Below are positions 40,685 to 63,691 of a stretch of 64,000 bases of DNA, piece after piece. The first letter of the stretch is position 1. Every line of letters begins with the position of its first letter. This stretch comes from Neoscytalidium dimidiatum. Taxonomy: Eukaryota; Ascomycota; Dothideomycetes; Botryosphaeriales; Botryosphaeriaceae. The notes under the pieces are model-generated. The model was not told where the DNA came from, did not search any database, and saw only the letters and a program-made list of their open reading frames with translations. The translations under genes were made by a program, and so were the position numbers. The stretch spans positions 186,001 through 250,000 of the forward strand of contig JAVSCG010000040.1 in assembly GCA_037367355.1 (NCBI GenBank), in the 5' to 3' direction.

Positions 40685-40882
40685 CCCCCGTGGTTGGGGG
40701 CCCCTTCTCCATTTGAAAATGATAATTAAAAAATGGAAATTTCATATTAATTTTAAAAAAATTATATTTTTTAAAATCACGCCTTATTTATAAGGCTGGG
40801 GGGGGGACCCCACCTTAAAAACAATGAAAGGAAAGGAAGATAAAATCATTCCTTTCATTTTCTTTTTAAGGAACTAGCTATA
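40685..40882. repeat. Large repeat R, copy 1
   Basis: Composite of GC arms, an AT-rich centre (AAAATGATAATTAAAAAATGG) and a GGAATGATTTTATC-type hairpin. About 175 nt match copy 2 at 50742-50930 in inverted orientation almost base for base. Part of it recurs at 55858-55920. Confidence 0.85.
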
Positions 40883-49389: not shown

Positions 49390-49462
49390 GAGACAAGGAG
49401 GAATTGAACCTCGTATGTCTGATCTGCAATCAGATTACAGAACCTTCTGTATACATGTCCCT
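49390..49462 (-). tRNA. trnC: tRNA-Cys (GCA)
   Basis: Acceptor AGGGACA/TGTCTCT, anticodon stem TCTGA/TCAGA with loop TTGCAGA (GCA), T loop TTCAATT with GAGG/CCTC stem. Standard length. Between nad2 and the cox3 exon copy. Confidence 0.88.
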
Positions 49463-49820
49463 TAATAACATATATTGTATATTATGTATACAATATCTTA
49501 AGCAATTACCTTTATACCTTTTATTATCTAGAATTTATTATATTTCATAATAAATTCTAGATCATTTATGATATAAAAAGGATAGGTAATAGTTACAATT
49601 TAACTTTTCCTGCCGGCAGCTTTACAGCCTAAGGAATTTTTTTTTGCATTCTTCAAAAAAAAGGGAACTAAAAATTTAAGTAGGAAGTGGAACTTCTCCT
49701 CTTATCCCCTATCATTAGCTAAAAGCTAACCCCCCTCTTTGGTTTTTATTTGTTTCTGAATAAGTTTTCATAGGAGAAGAGTACTAAAGGTATTATCATA
49801 AAGTTGATTAATTATAATCC
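49463..49820. other. Spacer with a strong AT hairpin
   Basis: CTAGAATTTATTATATTTC pairs with the following complement (49530-49562), and a GGAATTTTTTTTT/AAAAAAAGGGAAC region follows. No gene seen. The hairpin could be a 3' processing or termination signal. Confidence 0.45.
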
Positions 49821-49976
49821 TTAGTAATAAATAGATATGAATAAAAATAATCATACTACGTCTACAAAGTATCAATACAAAATTCCCGCTTCCAATCCAA
49901 GATGGTGATTGTTTGTTTGATGATATGCCAAAACACGTCATAAACCCACTGCTAAAAAGGCTGTTCCTATTATAAC
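49821..49976 (-). pseudogene. Second copy of the cox3 last exon
   Basis: Encodes VIIGTAFLAVGLWRVLAYHQ to FISIYY and TAA, three residues short of the real exon (YYWGS). About 85 percent identical to 51304-51468. It is preceded by G in a phase-compatible context (TTTG then GTTATAATAGG), so it could be used as an alternative 3' exon and is not clearly dead. Confidence 0.82.
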
Positions 49977-51303
49977 CAAATATTTAATATACAAATTATT
50001 TATAGAAATATAATTTAAAAAATATTATATCCACTTTTTTATATGTAGGCTTTAATCATAATAGAATATATGAGCTTCTCCTTACTTTCCTATAATTTAT
50101 TATAGGGATAATCAAATATCTTACTTCCTGGTCGCAAGGATGGATATCTGTCCGTTAACCCGTTTTTTTGTTTAGACTTTAAAAAACATAAAACGAATAA
50201 AACATAAAACGAATAAAACATAAAAATAAATATTAAACCAAATTAAATTGATCCCACGTGCTACTAAAAAATTTATATACCATTAGGCAGATTAATGGCA
50301 CGATCTAAAATCTAAATGAGAATTAAATTTAAAGAACCCTTTATTAAAGGTGTTCTTTAATTGACTAATCCCTTTATAAAGGGAGTCCTGAAATTTAACC
50401 ACTTTAGATCTAAAGTGGTCAGATAAAGAATCTCTAGATAAATTACTAAAATGAAAAATTTTACTTACCCTACCTGAAGGGACTAAATAAGAATCTACCT
50501 AATCTAATGCAACACGGGAATAACACGCCTTCCCCTTATAAGGGGGGCAGGCCCCTTGGGGACTAGGGATAATCCCTGAACCAAGGGATTATTTAAATGA
50601 CCTAATATTCAACGGATATAATCAGGATGATGTGGTCAATTACGCGGTATAAAATTAAACCCTTGTAATGCTCCCTATGAGAAATTATTAGCTAATCTAC
50701 TAAAATCCACTTGCGGGGCTCCTTAAGAATGGGTCCCCGCAGGTTCCTTAAAAAGAAAATGAAAGGAATGATTTTATCTTCCTTTCCTTTCATTGTTTTT
50801 AAGGTGGGGTCCCCCCCCCCCAGCCTTATAAATAAGGCGTGATTTTAAAAAATATAATTTTTTTAAAATTAATATGAAATTTCCATTTTTTAATTATCAT
50901 TTTCAAATGGATAAGGGGGGCCCCAACTATATTCATATGAGGAATATCCATTGTAGGTATTACAAGACCATTACGAACAAAAATATTATTAAGTAATGAA
51001 GAAAGATCTCATTGAGGCATAATTAAATCTAAACCTTATTCAGGCATATAAACAGAGACAGTGATAATAATAATAAAAGAGCTGGGTTTAAACCCATCCT
51101 GTAAAATAACCGCATATGCAGAAAGGCTTTTTGGGGTTAATCCTGTTACAAATTAGGGTCCAATATAACCTTTTGGTTATTACAGTTAGATGTATAACTT
51201 CTTTTTATTTTATGTATAAATAGAATAGTGAATAATAAGTAATTATCACCGTACATATAAGAAATTGAAGATACATCAAAGCTAAGATATAAAACAAGAA
51301 ATA
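49977..51303. other. Spacer between the two cox3 last exons
   Basis: Contains a GC element (50535-50575), another at 50712-50740, repeat R copy 2 (50742-50930), and unassigned open fragments on the minus strand (for example QWDLSSLLNNIFVRNGLV near 50975-51030 and PHHPDYIRWILGHLNNP near 50590-50650). A tRNA-like hairpin (TGGGTTTAAACCCA) lies near 51084-51097. I do not recognise the fragments; they may be parts of a carried gene. Confidence 0.5.
50742..50930. repeat. Large repeat R, copy 2 (inverted)
   Basis: Inverted copy of 40685-40882, near identical over about 175 nt. The two copies flank atp9, nad3 and nad2. Confidence 0.87.
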
Positions 51304-51468
51304 TTACGATCCCCAGTAGTATATAGAAACAAATAGGAATAATCATACTACGTCTACGAAGTGTCAGTATAAAATTCCCGCTTCTAATCCAAGATGGTGG
51401 TTATCAGTTTGATGGTATGCTAATACACGTCATAAACCTACTGCTAAAAAGGCTGTTCCTATCATAAC
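51304..51468 (-). CDS. cox3: cox3 exon 6 (C-terminal)
   Basis: VMIGTAFLAVGLWRVLAYHQ to VSIYYWGS and TAA: the last helices of oxidase subunit 3. GTT follows an intron-terminal G and continues the CAT supplied by exon 5. Brings cox3 to 810 nt. Confidence 0.95.
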
Positions 51469-51479
51469 CGCGTCTATCT

Positions 51480-52140
51480 TTACTTCAGCATATCGAACGA
51501 TTTATGCGTGTTTAACTATTATAGTTAATACATATGTATATAAACACATAAATCATATAACTCCGACTTAGCTAGGACGTAAAGTTATTTCCATATTTCT
51601 AAGGAAGACTGAGTACACCTTAATTACAGAAGAGAAACTAGAGTTAATATTTAAAATCTATCTCATTCTTCTATAACAACTACCATCTACTCGATGCGCT
51701 TTTCCATATTAAATGATTAATATAGGTTAGTTCCGCGATTACCCATTTAAGTTTCCTTAATACAATAACTTATTACCTCACCCATTATGATTAGTAATGG
51801 TACTTATTATTAGACTTTTCACTATGTATAAGGTGGTATTATTGTCTTTAGGGTTTCCCCGGAGTTTGGCAGCTTAGTATAACTTAAGATTAATTTAAAC
51901 TTTTACTTCTTATAAAGTATAGTACAAGTACCAAAAGGGTGTTATTATACTTTAATCTCCTTCTAGCCACATTTATATAAATTTATATAAATTAGGGAGA
52001 CCTCGATAACGTCTTACCCCTATTATTAGTAAAAAAAAAGAATGGAAATGGAAAGGAAAAGAAAACTAGAGCTAGAAAGGAGTCCGTAATTAAACCCTTG
52101 CTACAGCAAAGGGTAAAAGAAAAGGGTGTCAACCCATAAA
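51480..52140 (-). ncRNA. Group I intron core region, cox3 intron 5
   Basis: Minus strand has AAGCTGCCAAACTCCGGGGA and AACCCTAAAG (P3/P4-like) and further paired blocks near 51660-51740. It lies between the decayed HEG and exon 6. Subclass not determined. Confidence 0.55.
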
Positions 52141-52147
52141 ATACTTA

Positions 52148-53476
52148 CTATCTGCCTTTATTCATCTCAGATTTTATTTGACAAACCTTGTCAAATCCCT
52201 CTTTGGTTAAATGATCCTTAGCTTTTATTATTTTGGCTATTTCACACCAATCATTAAAATCTTTCGATTTTACACCTCTTATGCTAAATTCACGGAAAAA
52301 CGGTATTATTTTTTCATAAATTTCTGAAAAACTCAGACATTCAAAATATACCGTAGTTCTACCCACCCCCCCCCGGGGTGGGTGAAACCACGCCCCCCCC
52401 CGGGGGGCGAGTTCTGTTTGCAGAAGTTGAACGATATACACCACAACTAAAGAAATTAACAAAACTACTAATTAGTGATGAATCCCTGCTATGCTGAGAT
52501 ATACTAAACACTAATCTTACGTAAACTTTAGAAGAAGATTTGTTTTCAGTAACGAAAAAACAATCGTCCCCCCCCCCGAAACAAACCCCGCCATTCACTG
52601 TCCAACTTTAATCAATTTGGAGCTACCCGGTATAATAAGAGCAATTTCATAATTGACCGAAGATTTAGCTTTAGCAATAATTTTAGTACTTTCAACTTCC
52701 CCGACGGGGCGGGGAGGTCCCCGTACCGGTTTCATATATATATGTATATATATATATGAAGATCAGGGGGAGGTCCCCCCCTTAAGAATGGGGGGACTAA
52801 AGGTCTAACAGCTAGCACAATATGAGGGAAAGCAGCCTTTAGTTCATTGTTTAAACCGAGATTAATAGAAGCTTTAAGAGACACAATTCTCTGTAACCCT
52901 TTCATTATTAAATGTTCCCTACGGGGGTGGGGTCCCCGTGGTTGGGGGTTCCCCCTTTATGGGGGGGGCTCCCCAACTTAGTATTAACAATATTTACAAC
53001 GGTTTTAAAGAGAAGGAAATCTGCAAGCTTTTGGCTAATTAGAGGATATTTAACAAAATGAGGTATAATTACAGTAGTTAACTGTTCTATAGAAGATACG
53101 TAAAACCCACAGCTATTTTTTCCCTCTGTTATTCTACCTATACCTCCGAAAAAAACTTTGATTTCTTTTAGAAGCGGCAAATCTCGAGAATGAAGACTGA
53201 TTGAAAAGATAGCTTCTACATGTCAACCTATTTGAGTTTTTTTAGATTTTCTAACTCTAATAGAAAAACAACCTTCTGCATCGTTAAATCCTGTAATAAA
53301 TCCAGGATCTAGCCCCCTACGGGGCGTGGATCAAAAAAAAAGATTTTTTTTGGATCTAAATGGAAAATTTGTGAGTCTGAAGACAGCAAGTTTTTTTGTT
53401 ATTACGGGAAGTAAATGTAAAAAAAAGATCTAATATACTTTTTTACACTACTTTTCCTGTCCCAATCGGAAAATGA
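52148..53476 (-). pseudogene. LAGLIDADG gene of cox3 intron 5, riddled with GC elements
   Basis: From exon 5 the frame reads HSFSDWDRKSS; later ITGFNDAEGCFSI (about 53270-53310), FVKYPLISQKLADF, and a second domain with LRVSQHSRD-type and FREFSIRGVKSKDF segments to TAG near 52148. At least five GC elements (52360-52408, 52566-52590, 52690-52800, 52921-52978, 53307-53340) and several frameshifts break it. A dead HEG acting as a landing ground. Confidence 0.78.
52690..52800. repeat. Cluster of GC-rich elements
   Basis: CCCCGACGGGGCGGGG, GTCCCCGTACCGG, an (AT)n palindrome ATATATATGTATATATATAT and GGGGGAGGTCCCCCCC in a row. Further single elements are at 52360-52408, 52921-52978 and 53307-53340; the last has GGATC on each side. 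Confidence 0.75.
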
Positions 53477-53481
53477 ATGTA
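53477..53481 (-). CDS. cox3: cox3 exon 5, 5-nt micro-exon (TACAT)
   Basis: Exon 4 ends GGGT and exon 6 starts GTTATG. TACAT between them gives GGG TTA CAT GTT, i.e. G-L-H-V of the conserved FHGLHV motif. TACAT is preceded by G and ends in T. It lies directly after a group I core and is followed by an open HEG frame. Without it the reading phase and His are lost. Confidence 0.75.
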
Positions 53482-53489
53482 CAAAATTG

Positions 53490-53775
53490 TTATCATAAGG
53501 CATTTAAACCTTATCTCAATAATTTACATTATTGTTCAGACCATATATTTAACAATTACTTTGTTTAATTTCTTTTTTATTTATTCTCCCGCTCTTTCAG
53601 ATCAGAAAAAAAAGAAGAGTAGTAATTACCACAGAATTTACACACTTGTGTAAATTGGCCGTTGAACCTACATATATTTTAAATTATTTTTATATAATGT
53701 GTGGCTGCATATAGACCTAAAACGATATAAATTTTAGGATTTTCATGCAATTAACTCTGTTAGACTTTACCCTGA
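53490..53775 (-). ncRNA. Group I intron core, cox3 intron 4
   Basis: Minus strand: AGTTAATTGCATGAAAATCC, ATGCAGCCACACA, GTTCAACGGCCAA and ATGGTCTG in order, a variant of the third subclass. It ends just upstream of TACAT. Confidence 0.7.
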
Positions 53776-53815
53776 AAATAGGGTAGGGCTATTTTTTTTG
53801 TCCACTACATTTGAG

Positions 53816-54765
53816 CTATTTATAAGATCTACCTGTATTCATTTGAGATTTAATTAAAGATATTTTCTCAATACCTTCTTTAGTCAAGTGTGCTTTAGCT
53901 AACATTAAATTAGCTATTTCGCAAAAATAAAAAAAATTTAATAACTTCACACTTTGTAGAGGGTATTCACGAAAGAAAGGAATCAATTTATCCCAAATGT
54001 CACTAAATTTATATACTACAAATGCTACTGAATTTGGTCTAATTTTAACCTTTTCAATAACACCGTAACCTAAATAATTAACTATACATTTAAACAACAT
54101 CTCGTCACGAGAGTGTTGAGATAATGAAAAAGTAAGTAAAACTTGATGACCTGATTTGCTAGAGATTTTTTTCACATTAGCGTAAAAACAACCCTCTCCA
54201 TCAACAAATCCTACTAACCAGTTAGGGTAATATATAGTATCAATATTAAACTCTGGTCTAAGAACAGGTACAGTATTAGGGAAAGCTTTTTTTAATAACT
54301 CAGGTAAACCTTTGTTCATTGAAGCTCTTATATTAATAATTTTTTGTAATCCCTCCACTGAAGACTGTGCTTTCTCATTTAAAAGTTGAACAGCAAGACT
54401 AAATAGTATGAAGTCTGTTCTTTTTTTAGTGAGTAAAGGATATTTGGTAAAATGGGGGATTATTACTTGTGTAATATCAGAAAAAGATTGCACATAGTAT
54501 GTAACCTTTCCATTTTTACGGTCACTAAGGATACCTACTCCGAAAAATTCTTGGATACGTTTTAATAATATAGTATCTCTTCTGTCTAACTCAATAGCAA
54601 AAATAGGTAAAACTCTTCAACCTAATTTTCTAGAACTATTTTTTGCAATTCTTAAGCTAAAAGAAGATTTTGCATCAGAAAATCCTGATACTCAATTTGG
54701 ACACAGTTTAGTGTTAGATAGTCTAGAAGAAAAAGACTCAGAATTAGTTTTGGTTTCTGTTGTTA
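53816..54765 (-). CDS. LAGLIDADG endonuclease fused to cox3 exon 4
   Basis: In frame from the 10-nt exon through SESFSSRLSNTK to TAG/TAA 53816. The motifs are WVSGFSDAKSSFSL (about 54650-54690; D-A-K instead of D-x-E/G) and WLVGFVDGEGCFYA (about 54180-54220). Both subunits are complete (HFTKYPLLTKKRTDF, REYPLQSVKLLNFF). No GC element inside, which makes it the cleanest HEG of cox3. Confidence 0.85.
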
Positions 54766-54775
54766 ACCCGTGGAA
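54766..54775 (-). CDS. cox3: cox3 exon 4, 10-nt micro-exon
   Basis: TTCCACGGGT encodes F-H-G plus T. Exon 3 ends ...GTG (GGT). Preceded by intron-terminal G and ending in T. It supplies the FHG of the invariant FHGLHV motif, lying between a 395-nt ORF-less intron and a HEG-bearing intron. Confidence 0.85.
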
Positions 54776-55170
54776 CAAATATTGTTATCATAAAGCTATT
54801 TAACTCTATTTCAACAGATTACTCTGTTGTTCAGACTATGTTTTGTATTCATTATAATTAAAATTAATATTATATAACTATACTAGTTACAAGAATACTC
54901 CCTTTAGTGTTTACTAAAAAGAGTGTTATTCCTCTACTAAAAAAGGATCACTATATAAATAGTATTATTAATATGTATTTATAAATGAATTCCCAGGCAC
55001 TCGAGTAAGATTTATATCTTTTAGTCGTTGAACGTTCTTATAAATAAGCTTCGCTGCAAGTTGTTTTAATAAAAACGATTTTTACGTTTTTTTACTACGT
55101 AAGTAAAAGATTCTTGCAATTCACCAGGTAGACAAAATTATTTTTCAATAATAAAGTGGCTTAAAGTTAA
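54776..55170 (-). ncRNA. cox3 intron 3, small group I intron without ORF
   Basis: Complete third-subclass core: TTGCAGCGAAGCTT, GAACGTTCAACGACTAA, ACTCGAGTGCC, ACATAGTCT. At 395 nt it is the minimal intron of the window. Confidence 0.85.
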
Positions 55171-55372
55171 ACCGGTTCCAAAATAGAAACAAGACCCGAA
55201 AGCTCCATCAGAAATAGTGAAAGAAGAAACTGAGTATTCAACACCTTGGAAACCTGTAAAGATAACAGCTAGAAGAATAGTAAATACTAAACCATATAAA
55301 GCTCCACTTCTATTACCTTGTATTAAAGAATGGTGAGCATAAGTTACTGTAATTCCAGATGATAATAATATT
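55171..55372 (-). CDS. cox3: cox3 exon 3
   Basis: ILLSSGITVTYAHHSLIQGN to FYFGTG. It starts AATATTATTA after G, completing the Val codon split from exon 2, and ends GGT. After it the frame adds LTLSHFIIEK and stops inside the intron. Confidence 0.96.
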
Positions 55373-55599
55373 CAACTCTAATTAAAATATGCAAGGTACA
55401 ACCTTACTACCTTCCTTTCTATTAAAAATTAATTAAAATAGATAACTTATTTTTTTATCTCTTTATGGTAAATACTATTATAAAAAAGTTTATATCTAAC
55501 ATAGGAAGATTATATTAAAGAAGTCTACGACCTTTGTGTATAAGGTGAACCCGCTGTGTATGCATGGGTAATCCTAACTTCTAACGATTTTACACTCGT

Positions 55600-55740
55600 T
55601 TTAGAGTCCGACTGTACATTTGAACGGGCATTTCAGCCCAGCTCCGGTGAACCAGTCTGTAGCGACATTTACAACTGCCGACGGTCTTGGGTTAGGATAC
55701 CTTTAACCGTTTTCACCTAATTTTTCTACAAGCACAGAAC
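55600..55740 (-). ncRNA. Group I intron core (second subclass), cox3 intron 2
   Basis: AAAACGGTTAAAGG, AAGACCGTCGG, TGTCGCTACAGACTGG, TGTACAGTCGG as at 7.6 and 17.6 kb. Confidence 0.7.
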
Positions 55741-55769
55741 TGATTCGGTTGTAACCTTAACTCAGCTCC

Positions 55770-55920
55770 TTTTTTTGCTCCATACGGGGCCTTATTTTAT
55801 TATATAATAAAAAAAAATTAGGGGTGGGGTGGGGTGGGGTGGGGTGGGGTCCCCCCCTTTATCCATTTGAAAATGATAATTAAAAAATGGTAATTTCATA
55901 TATGAAATTAGGGGGGCCAA
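55770..55920. repeat. GC-rich element plus partial copy of repeat R
   Basis: CCTTATTTTATTATATAATAAAA hairpin, five tandem GGGGT units, then TCCATTTGAAAATGATAATT as in repeat R (same orientation as copy 1), ending GGGGGGCC. Confidence 0.8.
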
Positions 55921-56008
55921 CTATAAAAATATTTTTTTATGTATAAATATTTTTTTATGTATAATCCTTTCTCCAATATAAAGAAGAGAAAATAGAAGAT
56001 GATTTAAT

Positions 56009-57443
56009 TTACTCATAATCAATAGGATAAAAGACAGGGATTCTTCTCACAGTATGGTTTTTAAGTACTACTCCATCGGAAATATTATCTAAGACATCTA
56101 AATGTCTTCTTAAAGTATTAAAACCTGTACCTATAATTTGAGCAGATTCAGCCAAATTAGGCATTAATAGTACTTCACTTGAAGGTTTAATTATTTCATA
56201 AATACAACTACTTGAACGACGATGTATTACTTTTTTTGTAAGATGGTCGATTTGACGACCGTCTTTAAGATGTACAATGGTAGGTTTTGCATTAATTAGC
56301 ATATCCATTTCATCCTTACTTAAATAATTTATTGTACCTGGATATGTTGATAACCGATAGTTGTCCATAGTATAAGATAATTTAAGTATTAATGATGCTA
56401 TTTTCTTTATACGGTGAGCACCATTGTAGATAGTCTTACATATAACTTTAAAATCTAAAAAATCTTTACCATTTTTAGTCATAAATTCCTCTTTATTCAG
56501 AAAAGGAATTAAATAGTTATTTAAAACATGTACATTTTTAATCATAAGTATTGCTAAAGGAAGAGATTTACCTGTGTTCCTAGCTTTTTCAGATCTTATT
56601 GAAATAATTGAAGTACTTTTTAACTTATGCATAGAATATGAATCAAAACCTAAATTATTTTCTAAATATTCTTTTATTTTTAATAATAAAGGAAGTTGTA
56701 TTTCGGATAATTTAATAGAAAATATAGGTTCAAAAGTAACTCTTTCTAAACTAAATGAACCATCACCTTCTATAAAACCTAATAATCAACTTTTTGTTAT
56801 AACAACATGATTTTCTGGCATATTAAATTTAATACGTTTAGTATTCATGTTATTTTTTAATTCCAATATTTTAAATATTAATGCATCTGTTAACTTTTCT
56901 CTATTCTGATATAAAGTAAAAGCTAATTTAAAATCTAAAAAATCCAAGTATTTACTAGAATTTAAAGTAAATTTGTTAAAAATAGAGATTAATTTATTAA
57001 TCTCATCAATTTTTGTTACAACAAAAATCTGTTTATCTTTGTAAGAATAAATCTTACCCATACCTAATTTACTTTTAATTATATTTAAAACACCTACATC
57101 ATCTTTATGTAATCCTATTGTAAATTTGAAAGAAAAACCTTCAATCTTATTTGTTCTACTGTTTATAGAAGATATTCCGAAACTACATTCAGCATCTGAA
57201 AATCCTACGAATCATCTGTAAAATTTATCAAGACAAAAGCTATTTAAATAATTCTTAGCTACTAATTTCTTGCATCTCTTTTTGGAGTAAGGTAAAACAC
57301 GAGAAGACCGAGTTACCCATAAAGGTAAAGATAACAATATAGGATGGTCTATAAAGTAATGATTCAGAGTTAAGTTAAGCTCGTAGAGTTGGATTTTCAC
57401 CAACACAGCAACATTATCAACAACTAAGATAATGACACAATAT
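56009..57443 (-). CDS. LAGLIDADG endonuclease with C-terminal DNA-binding extension, cox3 intron 2
   Basis: In frame from exon 2 to stop 56009, about 478 residues. The motifs are WFVGFSDAECSFGI (about 57160-57200) and WLLGFIEGDGSFSL (about 56750-56790). It ends with a 120-residue extension (AESAQIIGTGFNTLRRHLDV), helix-turn-helix-like, as in the cob intron 3 ORF (20054-21445). No lesion under code 4. Likely active. Confidence 0.86.
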
Positions 57444-57652
57444 ACTGTATTTAATAAAGGTAATTCAAAAGGATTAATAGCTTCAATACCTAATGGCGGT
57501 CACATAGCACCTAATTCTACTGTAGGTGATAATGCACTATGGAAGAAAGCTCAGAAAATAGCAAGGAAGAATAATCCTTCAGATACTATAAATAAAGCTA
57601 CACCTAAATTTAGACCTCTTTGGACTGCGAGGGTGTGATTACCTAAATATGT
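57444..57652 (-). CDS. cox3: cox3 exon 2
   Basis: [20 protein letters not shown] to FELPLLNT plus GT. ACATATTTAGG follows G; ends ACAGT. Contains [16 protein letters not shown], the signature of subunit 3. Confidence 0.96.
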
Positions 57653-57684
57653 CAAAAAAAATTAAATATATTTCTATATTTAAT

Positions 57685-57850
57685 GGACTATCTCTTATTT
57701 AATAGGTTATATATATTACCTTTAACGTATTAAATTTTAACATATAGTCTCTGAGGATCCTACTAGAATATTTATCCGTCCGTTGGTTTCCTGCTGATTA
57801 TCTTATTATAGTAAGAGTTTTCAGCAATTAGTTAATTTTAAATAGGGCAC
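57685..57850 (-). ncRNA. Group I intron core, cox3 intron 1
   Basis: AATCAGCAGGAAACC, CTCAGAGACTATATG, GATAGTCC; it lies just before exon 2, closing a 5.8 kb intron. Confidence 0.78.
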
Positions 57851-57975
57851 ATATAAGTACCAAAACTGTCTAAAATCAATATTTATAATTAATTTTTTTT
57901 TATAATTTATTTATATTTTTCCTGCCTTCTAATTTTTTGTACTTTTTATATGTTAAGAATAAAAAGTACAAAAAA

Positions 57976-58450
57976 ATAAGCCCCGGCCGCCGCTGCGCGG
58001 CAGGGGCTATTAAAGATTTAATTTTTAATCTTCCTTCATCAGTAATATGTTCTTTAGATAAAATCATACCATAAACAACCTCTCATTTCTTATAATCTTT
58101 TAACTTATCACCTAATAAAGGATATTCATTAAAATAATCTACAAGAAATGTTATACTATCTATAGACGATACGCTTACAGATAGTATTTCTGAGCCCATG
58201 TTATTAGTATAACTTTTAAGATTACAAGATAAAAAGTAAAGCCAATTTTTCCATAAAAGGTATAGCCCCCTTAGGGGCGTGGACCCTCCCCCCCGAGGGG
58301 GGGAAGGTCTCATGGAAGAAGATGTAGATTTATCAAATGAACGCTGATCCAATCTAAATTTGAGACTTACATTTTTACTAACAGATCTCTTAAGAGTATC
58401 TGATTTAGCTTTACTTTCAATGTATCTAATCCCAAAATGTCCATCAGCGA
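57976..58450 (-). pseudogene. LAGLIDADG fragment with two GC elements, cox3 intron 1
   Basis: ADGHFGIRYIESKAKS (about 58400-58445) and FNEYPLLGDKLKDYKKW (about 58085-58135) mark the second subunit of a LAGLIDADG_1 protein; the first is missing. GC elements at 58257-58312 (in frame) and 57976-58010 interrupt it. Confidence 0.72.
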
Positions 58451-58568
58451 GGGGCTAGGTTTATCCCTATCTGATTTTACATATGGAGATAATAAGTAAT
58501 ATTAGGTTTTTATATGTTTATTTTGGATAAACATAAAGGTCAATCTATTTTTTAATAAATCTACCTGA

Positions 58569-59400
58569 TTAAATACCTAACTTATATAGCATGCTAGGTA
58601 TCATGTATGGTTTAACTATAGAGATTAAAATAGGCATAGAATGTTTAGAGATATAAATTCTATGATTATTTCTATCCGTATGAAGAGTAATAGTCAATCC
58701 GTAACGTATAATTAATACGTTCATTAATCGTACTACATCCTGAATCTGGAAAGAGTCAGTACATAGTCTTAAACCTCTTCCTTGATATGTTCCATCTCCC
58801 ATAATTAGGTGGGCTAAAGCTACCGGAGTTAACAAGTCGTAAATAGAATACGGAATTACTTTTTTACCGTTAAGATAAAAAAGATTATAAAGTAATGTTA
58901 AACAAGGTAAGGCCCTAGTAGTTATGGAAATACTATGATGGACTTTATCTCCTCTAAAGTTTGGTAGATAATAAGGATATCTTTCACAATAGTGACTTAT
59001 ACAATTAAATACGAATCAAACGTATGCAAACTTGTCTAGAGATTGTTTAAACCCTAATCTGGCATTTTTAACCGTATTAGACTGAGAAAGAGATAATCAA
59101 CCATCAGATAACAATAACCCTACTATAACGCTCTTTTGATAAGGAGCCCCGGCCGCCGCTGCGCGGCTGGGGCCTTATTTTTTTATAATATAAAAAAATT
59201 AGGGGACCCCACCCCCCGTGCTACGCACGGGGGGGGACCCCATAGGTAATAAAATCATATTTCTCACTAATTTGGTAAATCTTCCGTATTTGGCGGTAGA
59301 TTGTAAATTAGTACCTCATAATACTATATCAGTAGAGGAATTTAATATAGATTTATTTTTTTTTTGAAGGAATGTTACGCATTAAATTTAAAAATAATCA
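58569..59400 (-). pseudogene. LAGLIDADG_2 gene interrupted by a GC element, cox3 intron 1
   Basis: STDIVLWGTNLQSTAKYGRF and RNMILLP stand before a GC element (59147-59240). SVIVGLLLSDGWL, AHLIMGDGTYQGRG (about 58790-58830) and PYMIPSMLYKLGI to TAA 58569 follow it. The motif region is intact. Only the insertion, with a stop, separates the N-terminal strap. Confidence 0.78.
59147..59240. repeat. GC-rich element, shared form with 57976-58010
   Basis: Both have GCCCCGGCCGCCGCTGCGCG followed by GC and a G-run; here an A/T hairpin and a CCCCCCGTG...CACGGGGGG hairpin are added. Confidence 0.85.
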
Positions 59401-59540
59401 CATGTTTTTTATCGCATATGTTTCACATTGAAACATAAAGATAAACTCGGTTAATACTAGATATATAATTAAATATTATAAGATCTAGTATTATTCTTCT
59501 ACCCACAATCTTCAATTGAAGACTAACAGTTATAAGAAAA

Positions 59541-59626
59541 GTAGAATACCTTGACTTGAACAAGGAACCTGCTGCTAATGGATAGAAGGGACGCTGCAGC
59601 TATTCTGCCTATTGAACTACACTCTA
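59541..59626 (-). tRNA. tRNA-like gene with 20-nt anticodon loop inside cox3 intron 1
   Basis: Acceptor TAGAGTG/TATTCTA, D arm TTC-AATAGGCA-GAA, T arm CCTTG-TTCAAGT-CAAGG all pair. The anticodon stem GCTGC/GCAGC closes a 20-nt loop. It is either an intron-bearing tRNA, a tRNA with an insertion or a remnant. Its position inside a protein-gene intron is odd. Confidence 0.5.
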
Positions 59627-59763
59627 CCGACCTACGCTCGACTATATCTCTGATCTTCTTATTTATTTAATTTCTTTTTTTTCTTTATATAATAAAGAAA
59701 AAGAAGATTAGAGAAGAAAAAAAGGTCAAAGCCTGTAAATCAACTGTTATAAGAAAAGGTTGT

Positions 59764-60069
59764 CTATTTTACTAATTTTTTTGTTCCTAATATTACAAAA
59801 ATCTTAAAAAGTGAAGAGGTAAAGCCTGTAAACCAACTATTATTTGAAAAATGTGAACTATCTAATAAACTTTCTAATATATTAGTAGAATATTTGATAT
59901 TAATGAAATTAATTAAGTCATTAAATCTTCTATTTTTAGGTGTTCTAAGTTTACCGTGTATCAAATTAATAAAAGATATAATACCATTTTTATCTCCAAT
60001 AATATAACGAATAGTATTATTTCCTATCATTTGAAAACGACTTATATTACCCAATTTAGATTGTATCAA
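59764..60069 (-). pseudogene. LAGLIDADG fragment with lost second motif
   Basis: LGNISRFQMIGNNTIRYIIG and LRTPKNRRFNDLINFIN then WFTGFTSSLF where the second motif should be, like the degraded unit of the cox1 intron 1 polyprotein (WLAGFTSSNS). No first motif. Remnant. Confidence 0.6.
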
Positions 60070-60789
60070 AGCATATAAAGGGGGGAGGTTGACAATAATC
60101 TAATATATTGAACATTTACTTACTAACAATATCAACAAATATATATTATCTTCTTTTACTTTTAGGTTACAGCATTTTATAATTAACCATGTAAGATACA
60201 ATAAGTATATAAAAAAAAATACACATATATACACTTATTTTATATATATATATATATAATTAAAAATACCAAAAAAAAGTTAAACTTGAATAATAAAAGG
60301 TTTACTTTCTCTTAAAGTTCATCCCTGCTTTTAATTCTCTAATTTCATTTAACCCTTCTACAGTTAAATTACCTTTATTATTCATTATTTCTGCAACTTT
60401 GCAGAAATCTGAATAATCCTTAAATTTAACACCTTGTATAGGGTATTTATTAAAGAATGGAATTATTTTATCAGAGATTTCCGAAAGTTTATGGACAACT
60501 ATTTCAACATAATTGTAACCATTAGGTTGTTTTAATCTACCACAACCAAAAAAAAGATATGATACTTTTAATTAACTCGATATCCCGAGTATGTTGAGTT
60601 ATTTTAAAAATCAATTGTACTCCAGCTCCTACTTTAAGAGGAGATTTTGAAATATCTACAAAAAAGCATCCTTCTCCAGACGCAAACCCTGCTATCCATC
60701 AAGGATCTAAAGTTAATACCTTATTAACTAATGGTCTTGCCACAGGTATAATATCGGGAAAATAAGACTTCAAAACAGATGATATACCT

Positions 60790-60880
60790 ACGGGGTCCCC
60801 CCTCTCGCTGTAAGCGAGAGAGGGGGGGGTCACCGTGGGTTGGGGTCCCGGCTACGCCGGGGGGGGGGGCCCCCAACCTA
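60790..60880. repeat. Pair of GC-rich elements
   Basis: CCCCTCTCGCTG/CAGCGAGAGGGG-type hairpin, then GTTGGGGTCCCGGCTACGCC with its complement (CCCCAACC), the same form as 43.7 and 49.24 kb. Confidence 0.82.
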
Positions 60881-61055
60881 AATTCATTGCGGCTTTGATT
60901 TCAACAATTTTTTTAATTCCTTGGTTAGTCAAAGACTCCTTTTGTTTAATTAAGTTAACAACTGATTTAAATAAAAGAAAATCCGCATGTTTTTGAGATA
61001 ATAAAGGATAATTCTCAAAATGTTTAATGATAACTTCTAAATCTGAAATAGATCC

Positions 61056-61103
61056 TAGCCCCCTAGGGGCGTGGGATCCTAGCCCCCCGGAGGGGGATCC
61101 TAC
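61056..61103. repeat. Tandem GC-rich elements with GGATC boundaries
   Basis: Read on the minus strand, TAGGATC occurs three times, before, between and after CCCTCCGGGGGG and CACGCCCCTAGGGGG. It adds 45 nt in frame inside a conserved HEG segment (VGS...GSI). The repeat suggests target duplication at GGATC. Confidence 0.85.
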
Positions 61104-61520
61104 TGTGAAGTATACACTATCTTTATTTTGATTTATATTACCTACTCCATTAAAGAAACTTCTAATCTTTTCCAATAAAAGTTTATCCTTTAGATGTACA
61201 TGTAACTGAAAAACAAGAACTATACGTCATCCTGTTAAATTTTTAGTACTTTTAGTTAGATATACTCCAAATATACCTTCGGCATCAGTAAACCCGGTAA
61301 TAAATCAAGGATTTAATTTTGAACTGTTTAAGGTAGAAAGCAAACACTTTTGTTTTCCAAATTTAGAAAAGCAAACAATAAAATTCTTGTGGCATCTAAA
61401 CATTTTTAATTTATAGAAACACATGTTTTTCTTTTATCAGAAGGAGATAAAGAAATTTGGTTAACAGATAATCTTATTATAAAACCTAAATTACTAATAT
61501 GTGAAGTAAAGACTATTCTT

Positions 61521-61620
61521 TCCCCTCGGGGGAAAGTCCCCTCTCAGGGGTCCTTACCCTATTTCTTTTGTTTGAAAAAACAAAAGAAAGATTAGGGGTA
61601 AGTCCCCCCCTTGGGGGACT
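61521..61620. repeat. GC-rich element with A/T hairpin
   Basis: CCCCTCGGGGGAAAGTCCCC, TTCTTTTGTTTGAAAAAACA hairpin, AGTCCCCCCCTTGGGGGACT. Spacer between two HEGs. Confidence 0.78.
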
Positions 61621-61678
61621 AGGATTAAGTACTCGATTTAAAGTAGTAGTACCTAAAGCAGGAAGAGTTATATGACCA

Positions 61679-63472
61679 TTAGATCATTTTTTTTAATATA
61701 GAAGATAACATATAAGGTTTTATAAACATGATTAATTTATCCACAGAAGAACGATAAATATAAATTCTAGGTTTATCTTTTTCTAGTAGTAATTTACAAT
61801 GCAATCTATATCTAATAATCAATACATTAATTAATTTAACAACAGCTACTATATTAAAATAATCTGTACAAAGTATTAAACCTCTTCCTTGTAATATTTT
61901 ACTAGTACCCATTACCCATTGAGCTAGAACAAAAGGCGTTAAAAGATCGTATATATTATGAGGCACTATTTTTTCATTTTTATTATAAAACATATAATAA
62001 ATTTCAATAAAACTATATAACCATCTAGTACTAATTAATATCACGTCTATAGGTTTACCTTTAAAAAGATGACCTCTTGTAAAACGATAGGGACCTTTTT
62101 CACAATATATAGATATTTCTCTATATATGTGAAAAAGATATTCCTTATTTTCATAAGGTTGACGGAATTTAATACGTGCCTTTGCTTTTGTTTTATTATG
62201 AATATTAGCTCAACCAGATGATAAGAGTAAACCCACAAAAACACTATAAAGATATGGAGATATAATTTGTTCAGCACTTATTTCTTTTATAATTTGCTTA
62301 TAAGGTAACAATGCTACATCAAAATGTTCTGTTTTTTTATATATTAAACCTGTGCTTAATTTACTCTTACATATAGTAGAATAATCTCTTATATCTTTGA
62401 CCGTAGAAGATTTTTTACTAATCTTAGATATTAGTTTATATTTCATACTTTCCCGGGGGGAAGGTCCCCTCGGGACAGGCCCGAAGGGACTAGGAACAAT
62501 GTAAGGATCTACTATAGATTTTAATAAACCCATTGAGCTAGAACTAATATAAATTCTTGGTTTATTACCAAGCATATGAAGAGAACATTTAAGCCCATAT
62601 TTAATTATTAATACATTAATTAGTCTGACTACATCTTTTACAGTAAAATCGTCAGTACTAATTCTTAAACCACCAGAAACAGATGATCCATCCCCCCTTA
62701 TCATGTGGGCTAAAGCAACAGGAGTCAATAAATGAAAAATGTTTTCAGGTATAACTTTTTTATTATTAAGATAAAAAGAGTTATAAATTTCAACAAAACA
62801 AGGCAAGCTACGAGTAGAAAAAGATCAAGAACTCAAAATTACACCATTTCTAGTTCTAGCTTTAAATTTAGGTAAACTATAACAATAATGAGATAGCGTT
62901 CAATAAACAAACCAAACATAAGAAATTTGAAGAGAAGTTTGCTCGAAACCTAGACGTGGGTATTTATTATTAGCACTAGCATAAGATAGTCAACCTTCAG
63001 ATAATAATAATCCTACTATTATACTACGTTGATATTGTGGAAGTTTAAACATGTTTAATTCTACATTAGAAAGTCTGAATGTATTAAAACCAGAATACAG
63101 ATTTTTCCCTCAAATCACTAAATCTGTACTAGTATTTTTTGGTACATAAGAACTTTTTTTTCTTGTACTCATCTTAAATACTGTAATAGGTAAATATAAT
63201 TCCTTAATAGTATATAAACTAAATAAAGTAAGTTTTTTAGAGTCTAATAAACCTGCTAAATAATAACCTAAATTATTATTATTAGCATATAATTTATAAT
63301 GTTTATTATTAGCTCTATAATTATCTAGAGCTTTTTCTACTTCATTACTAGTCCCGAAGGGACTGTCCCCTAGGGTCAGGCCCCTGAAGGGACCTTCCCC
63401 AGAGGGGAAAGGGATAGCTTTAGCAATATTTAAATTATAAATAGACAGTATAGTACGTTTTAATCATACTCT
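61679..63472 (-). CDS. Tandem double LAGLIDADG_2 polyprotein fused to cox3 exon 1
   Basis: One frame from exon 1 to TAA 61679, about 595 residues. Order: a short LAGLIDADG_1 scar (YYLAGLLDSKKL), unit 1 (IVGLLLSEGWL about 63000; AHMIRGDGSSV about 62690), then a GC element of 42 nt inserted in frame within the closing motif PS|MKYKL, linker DIRDYSTICK (about 62375-62400), and unit 2 (FVGLLLSSGW about 62225; QWVMGTSKIL about 61900). Unit 2 has lost the acidic residues of both motifs, so only unit 1 could cut DNA. A second in-frame GC element sits near the start (63348-63408). Confidence 0.85.
62452..62496. repeat. In-frame GC-rich element in the HEG polyprotein
   Basis: Minus strand AGT-CCCTTCGGGCCTGTCCC... 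to GGGAA-AGT, 42 nt including one AGT copy. All other family members have the uninterrupted motif PS-M-x-Y-K-L at this point. Confidence 0.87.
63348..63408. repeat. GC-rich element, near-twin of 6145-6200
   Basis: CTAGTCCCGAAGGGACTGTC, AGGGTCAGGCCCCTGAAGG, GACCTTCCCC. In frame with exon 1 and the HEG. Confidence 0.83.
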
Positions 63473-63691
63473 ACCCTCTGATATTATATCACGAAATCAT
63501 AATGACATAGTATAAATTAATGTAACAAGCGCTATACCTAATACGTATCCAGCATTAGAAAACCCATGGAAAGTTGAAACAGCTGAAGTAGTAAGAGTTA
63601 ATAAGCTTATACTTGAATATAATGGCCACGGAGACGGTGACACTAAATGGAACGGATGTGCTTGGAAATTACTTCTTTGAATGTTAGACAT
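63473..63691 (-). CDS. cox3: cox3 exon 1
   Basis: Cytochrome c oxidase subunit 3. ATG 63691, MSNIQRSNFQAHPFHLVSPS to FRDIISEG. The exon ends GAGGGT; exon 2 continues with T-Y-L-G. HEG polyprotein follows in frame. Confidence 0.96.

Follow-up and report, generated by a model that had tools for sequence, protein, structure and literature searches.

Evidence for consecutive coding micro-exons of 10 and 5 nucleotides between group I introns in the mitochondrial cox3 gene of Neoscytalidium dimidiatum

Results

Structure of the cox3 gene

The cox3 gene of Neoscytalidium dimidiatum very probably contains two true coding micro-exons, TTCCACGGGT and TACAT, that lie between group I introns; this high confidence covers only the reality of the two exons in that setting, and neither the order of splicing nor the exon replacement considered below. 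The window, i.e. the whole stretch of 64,000 nucleotides that was analyzed, comprises positions 186001-250000 of contig C40 (307,956 bases) in an assembly of 43.8 Mb and 40 contigs. This contig is a partial tandem of the mitogenome, with near-duplicate passes ∼176.85 kb apart (genome ∼176.9 kb), and the two passes are identical over ∼14.2 kb of the cox3 locus save for two homopolymer runs in intron 5.

The six exons (Table 1), all of which are intact, sum to 219 + 209 + 202 + 10 + 5 + 165 = 810 nt including the stop codon and encode 269 amino acids in phase (code 4), with interruptions after coding positions 219, 428, 630, 640, and 645. An earlier sequence-only reading had held that this length is reached in phase only with both micro-exons, which was upheld when the exon sum was recomputed, and the positions it gave for them, the intron-terminal G preceding each, and their final U all proved correct. 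All five upstream exon ends carry T and all five introns end in G, so that the pairing of exon-final U with intron-final G used as a criterion for group I introns is present throughout the gene. The sequence and the comparison with relatives support the identity of the exons, their phase, the splice boundaries, and the assignment of the introns to group I, and the predicted mature message reads ...ACCGGT, then TTCCACGGGTTACAT, then GTTATG. Among the 120 matches listed for the Cox3 protein, the best-scoring relative with a named organism was Phyllosticta yuccae (88%).

Table 1. Coordinates of cox3 and associated features in the window
Feature	Position	Strand	Description
Exon 1	63473..63691	-	219 nt; 3' end GGGT
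Intron 1	57653..63472	-	5,820 nt; several LAGLIDADG-like ORFs
Exon 2	57444..57652	-	209 nt
Intron 2	55373..57443	-	2,071 nt; ORF open from exon 2
Exon 3	55171..55372	-	202 nt; 3' end ...GGAACCGGT
Intron 3	54776..55170	-	395 nt; site 630; without ORF of 80 aa
Micro-exon 4 (predicted)	54766..54775	-	TTCCACGGGT; 10 nt
Intron 4	53482..54765	-	1,284 nt; site 640
Micro-exon 5 (predicted)	53477..53481	-	TACAT; 5 nt
Intron 5	51469..53476	-	2,008 nt; site 645
Exon 6	51304..51468	-	165 nt including stop
Decayed exon 6 copy	49812..49976	-	first base same as exon 6; His251 to Tyr, Trp267 to stop
Intron 4 LAGLIDADG ORF	53816..54784	-	stop-to-stop; in frame with FHG of exon 4
Intron 5 LAGLIDADG ORF pieces	52148..53429	-	frameshifted in assembly
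Intron 1 candidate guide	57844-57848	-	GCCCU; 5 bp; P10 6 bp
Intron 2 candidate guide	57402-57409	-	GCUGUGUU; 8 bp with exon; P10 10 bp
Intron 4 candidate guide	53786-53789	-	GCCC; 4+2 bp; P10 2 bp
Intron 5 candidate guide	53443..53448	-	GUGUAA; 29 nt into intron 5

Need for the two micro-exons

The two micro-exons supply FHGLH, conserved residues that are absent from the other exons and that would be encoded in fewer than ∼4 codons per exon. That cox3 cannot encode FHGLHV unless both are included, as the sequence-only reading had argued, was borne out: FHG[L/I]HV is found at the corresponding place in 117 of the 120 Cox3 relatives listed, the other three having been missed by the search pattern, and the motif occurs once at the locus. 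The exon 4 string (G-TTYCAYGGNT) is present once in the 3,702 nt that separate exon 3 from exon 6 and once on the minus strand of the window as a whole, which is far from chance. The exon 5 string (G-TNCAY) likewise occurs once in the 3,702 nt, with 57 occurrences in the whole minus strand; being so short, it could by itself be a chance match, and comparative data are therefore needed for this exon.

A full-length cox3 elsewhere, named by the sequence-only reading as one of the observations that would count against it, was looked for in the whole genome, and no uninterrupted copy was found by either junction-string or protein searches. With up to 3 mismatches allowed, the spliced-junction search gave one match, a 3-mismatch place on contig C5. 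The protein search returned 10 matches, all on the mitochondrial contig; these are the large exons and the decayed copy of the last exon, each found twice because the mitogenome was assembled nearly twice.

Exon boundaries in relatives

Protein searches with the ORFs of introns 4 and 5 yielded 360 and 495 matches, respectively, and the best 120 of each were listed, giving 239 distinct intron-ORF relatives, which are known as proteins only, such that their exon boundaries are inferred. Fusion to an upstream cox3 exon was seen in 53 of the 239. The break follows FGTG (site 630/631) in 32 of these, FHG (site 640) in 19, and FHGLH (site 645) in 1, and the remaining protein is too short to tell; each of the three sites thus appears to be occupied in other fungi. 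Relatives that break at 640 carry the exon 4 sequence within an unbroken exon, and in the one that breaks at 645 the same is true of the sequences of exons 4 and 5: two relatives of the intron 4 protein, P0006 (70%) and P0009 (66%), have an unbroken ...TGFHGL, and P0140 (52%), a relative of the intron 5 protein, has an unbroken ...FGTGFHGLH with site 645 alone, the sole such case among the matches listed. The residue after FHG in the 19 relatives interrupted at 640 is L, Y, F, W, C, or S, in every case one with a T-initial codon, as the exon T retained at this site demands.

Relatives in which the small exons themselves can be recognized were also found. In P0001-P0005, P0008, and P0011 (91 to 60% identity), a start-type codon stands directly before FHGL (xFHGL). 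This is impossible in an unbroken gene, where a Gly codon occupies that place, and the 10-nt exon therefore appears to be present elsewhere. Similarly, Val-His (Val-Tyr in P0121) runs into the intron 5 ORF in P0121, P0129, P0131, P0133, P0134, P0135, and P0137. Val before His is what an intron-terminal G followed by exon TN should give, so the 5-nt exon also appears to exist in other fungi; in P0121, P0129, and P0131 the Val is preceded by PYDN, as at the end of intron 4 here (MPYDNNFVHSFSDW). Three of the 13 relatives aligned for intron 5 were excluded, P0141 and P0143 (which begin MHS and are ambiguous) and P0124 (which starts too late), and the 5-nt exon was apparent in 7 of the 10 informative ones. 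That count takes in P0121, which would encode Tyr in place of the invariant His and to that extent speaks against the micro-exon reading. The other three are P0130 and P0132, in which V-HGLH-S indicates an exon of 14 nt bounded by sites 631 and 645, and the unbroken P0140.

DNA of the relatives was also sought. The cox3 query matched nine stretches of viral contigs, none of them a relative; alignment of the intron ORFs pointed to 37 loci (28 and 8 on viral contigs, 1 on genome contigs), and the 8 of these that were checked contained no convincing cox3 match (best E 0.38).

Group I character of introns 3-5

A recognizable group I core had been claimed to precede each micro-exon, and the searches against Rfam RF00028 agree. 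Intron 3 matched with 38 bits over part of the model (E 2.5e-8; core match 55020-55121), intron 4 with 32.2 bits (E 3e-5; 53517-53800), and intron 5 with 35.7 bits (E 2.6e-6; 51589-51906), all below the gathering score of 50 and with E values from searches of different size. At the gathering threshold the whole window yields one group I intron, which lies outside cox3. The 3' ends of introns 3 and 4 are 76% identical over a 62-nt stretch that stops 1-2 nt short of the proposed splice sites. Introns 3, 4, and 5 are described here as group I-like, with a conserved core that scores below the gathering value.

Guide pairings and order of splicing

Candidate guides were sought by scanning for a G opposite the last exon U followed by pairing. 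Introns 1 and 2, which are flanked by larger exons, yielded clear candidates, and those of introns 3, 4, and 5 were chosen by position. The intron 3 candidate pairs over 3+3 bp with the exon and forms a P10 of 2 bp. For intron 4, a 5-bp exon pairing within the core (53541) ranked above the chosen candidate and was set aside by position. The GUGUAA candidate of intron 5 forms 6 bp, for which it uses the complete TACAT exon together with the final base of exon 4; the pair at the splice site is U-G and there is no P10. Two further 6-bp pairing places lie deeper in the intron (52275 and 52247). The claim that a 5-nt exon leaves almost no exon for P1 and P10 was upheld in part: exon 5 can pair fully with its candidate guide, so that P1 of intron 5 need not lack exon sequence, whereas P10 is indeed weak or absent for the chosen candidates (2, 2, and 0 bp for introns 3-5). 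Against 5,000 mononucleotide shuffles, in short windows chosen after the candidates had been seen, the exon pairings of introns 1-5 gave P values of 0.46, 0.018, 0.91, 0.45, and 0.06, so that only the intron 2 pairing is significant, that of intron 5 is marginal, and those of introns 1, 3, and 4 are no better than shuffled sequence. The intron 1 candidate lies ∼195 nt before the 3' end of its intron, which would place the ORFs within the loop of P1.

The intron 5 guide overlaps a Ser-(Val/Ala) codon pair in which Ser is found in 13 of 13 aligned relatives and the next residue is Val (8) or Ala (5; P0130, P0135, P0140, P0141, and P0143). This Ser is the sole residue conserved in all 13 across alignment columns 81-125, and the overlap lends some support to the candidate P1.

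Introns 4 and 5 would most likely be removed sequentially and not simultaneously, since a 5-nt exon cannot occupy two catalytic cores. In a first step, exon 5 would be the 3' exon in the splicing of intron 4, where its two initial bases form the candidate P10; all of it would then be available as the 5' exon strand in the P1 of intron 5. Prior removal of intron 4 adds one base pair to that P1, which makes the order intron 4 before intron 5 somewhat the likelier of the two on the basis of the predicted pairings.

Intron-encoded proteins

The intron 4 ORF is intact and open through exon 4 in the phase of cox3. Its product is of the I-OnuI/I-SmaMI type by sequence, with an alignment that covers almost the entire protein (I-SmaMI, E 2.2e-72), but the first catalytic Glu is replaced by Lys. 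Enzymes of the I-OnuI type carry two LAGLIDADG motifs, each with an acidic residue; here only the second motif keeps its Glu. At the first acidic position the 120 listed relatives have 103 Glu, 1 Lys, and 16 gaps, i.e. Glu in 103 of the 104 aligned. The protein is therefore probably not an active cutter, and it may assist splicing or have lost its function only recently.

In the intron 5 ORF, C/G homopolymer runs at 52568 and 52971 differ in length between the two assembly passes, such that its frameshifts read equally as decay or as sequencing error. Among the best 120 LAGLIDADG matches listed, one was on contig C2 (3985343) and the others on the mitochondrial contig.

A second copy of the last exon

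A decayed copy of exon 6 lies 1.3 kb downstream of cox3. The two copies differ at 25 of 165 nt, 19 of which are third positions (dS 0.79 and dN 0.05). His251 stands in the context YWHFVD in all 120 listed relatives, in contrast to the Tyr of the decayed copy, and position 267 is Trp in all 108 relatives scored there as against a stop codon in the copy. This mostly synonymous divergence implies that the copies diverged mainly under selection, presumably in different genomes, and that one of them presumably decayed recently.

In the mechanism that we propose, intron 5 would have been acquired from another lineage together with the exon 6 that follows it, and the original last exon would have been displaced and would now be decaying downstream of the gene. 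The arguments for and against such an arrival appear to us evenly balanced, and which copy is the foreign one is an assumption. No relic group I core was found by Rfam before the decayed copy, and a literature search on displaced terminal exons found no report.

Two other features were noted in this region. An inverted repeat of ∼185 nt, 97% identical, occupies 50743-50927 and 40693-40874, one of its copies separating exon 6 from the decayed duplicate, and a tRNA-like match at 49390-49460 on the minus strand was given by Rfam (36.4 bits) and not by ARAGORN.

Discussion

The account of the locus that we favor is that three group I introns colonized the neighboring sites 630, 640, and 645 in the most conserved stretch of cox3 (GT-GFHGLHV), with the consequence that true coding exons of only 10 and 5 nt are left. 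A precedent exists for reading introns 3-5 instead as one composite side-by-side twintron that is spliced as a unit, with TTCCACGGGT and TACAT as internal pseudo-exons: in Ophiostoma ips cox3-640, tandem group IA modules appear from RT-PCR and RNA-seq to splice as a unit (PMC12308204; predicted in PMC7902536), and a pseudo-exon with sequential splicing was proposed for Hypomyces aurantius (PMC4964425). Modules of a twintron have no required coding sequence between them, whereas FHGLH is encoded between those considered here; unit splicing would fuse FGTG to VMIG and delete residues that the listed relatives require. Furthermore, according to the available text on Hypomyces, the whole motif precedes the insertion and a second copy of it closes the first module; in the present gene, exon 3 goes no further than FGTG and there is a single copy of the motif. 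The pseudo-exon reading was accordingly rejected as very improbable.

A shift of the boundaries, either to a 12-nt exon 4 (TTCCACGGGTTA) with a 3-nt exon 5 (CAT) or to an exon 3 that is one base longer (site 631), is suggested by the start of intron 4, where TAAC permits TTA to be read, and by the use of site 631 in published introns and some relatives. It would nevertheless violate the U|...G| rule of the cox3 introns, it does not agree with the exclusive use of T-initial codons after FHG at site 640 although the residue itself varies, and the 3' ends common to introns 3 and 4 extend up to the proposed TTTG|. We regard such a shift as having a very small probability, similar to that of the pseudo-exons. 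Least probable of all, to the point of being nearly negligible, is that this cox3 is dead and a complete gene resides elsewhere: the intron ORFs show partial decay and there is an additional last exon, but the six exons are intact, and the genome matches are solely on the mitochondrial contig, none of them uninterrupted. A second full cox3 was rejected on the string and protein searches of the genome.

Coding micro-exons between group I introns, the reading that we prefer, have counterparts in the literature, insofar as the available parts of the cited papers describe them. Mini-exons of less than ∼4 codons in mitochondrial genes “occur regularly” (PMC10352661), 3-nt exons are cited in PMC8971849 and PMC12308204, a 1-nt rnl exon lies between group II introns (PMC8208691 and PMC12308204), and general remarks on short exons are made in PMC8260586 and PMC9240083. 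Like those, the exons described here are very short coding segments between mobile introns that are easily overlooked in annotation; unlike them, two are consecutive (10 and 5 nt) among three group I introns, whereas the 1-nt rnl exon is flanked by group II introns. The site cox3P640 is known to host side-by-side introns (PMC4964425, PMC7902536, PMC12308204, and PMC7325650) and is also occupied in Ganoderma lingzhi (PMC13254553). Intron 4 resembles the Hypomyces and Ophiostoma introns in its site, its group I type with a LAGLIDADG ORF, and a second group I intron close downstream, but the second intron here is 5 nt on, at 645, and is separated by necessary coding sequence instead of a pseudo-exon. 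Intron 3 is in the neighborhood of cox3P631, known from Cordyceps/Isaria, where the intron of Cordyceps blackwelliae is also ORF-less (PMC7325650 and PMC10327131); it differs from these in being placed at 630 by the intron-terminal-G rule. In Tremella fuciformis, as far as the accessible text describes it, intron-mediated exchange of host gene fragments with a truncated copy left behind has been proposed (PMC7315562). The import of a foreign piece of the host gene by a mobile intron is common to both cases as proposed, but the duplicate in Tremella is inside the 5' end of the intron, whereas here the old last exon would lie downstream of the gene.

The micro-exons are real, well supported, and of a known kind; what appears to be new is the three-site cluster, the recurring 640/645 pair, and the putatively replaced last exon. 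Literature searches for cox3-645, cox3P645, and neighboring numbers found no report, and those on short exons did not find this cox3 case, subscription journals and supplements being outside both.

The recognition site of a LAGLIDADG enzyme spans about 20 bp, so an intron inserted at a distance of only 5 nt should abolish the target of its neighbor. Ordinary homing is thus difficult where one intron is already present, and co-transfer or reverse splicing offer testable solutions to this problem of origin. It is conceivable, although we consider it rather doubtful, that intron 640, TACAT, and intron 645 form a composite mobile unit that has spread among fungi as a pair, carries its own downstream exon with which it displaces the resident one, and is spliced in a fixed order imposed by the successive use of one set of five bases by two ribozymes. 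If this were true, site 645 would be an undescribed insertion site.

The locus also offers a natural case for the minimal exon that a group I ribozyme needs and for whether two ribozymes can share a 5-nt exon only in sequence. Annotation that skips the micro-exons would yield a cox3 without FHGLH. A 26-kb entry in PLSDB filed as a Proteus mirabilis plasmid (NZ_CP053901.1) encodes a cox3 73.8% identical to the present one; the entry is possibly a misfiled mitochondrion.
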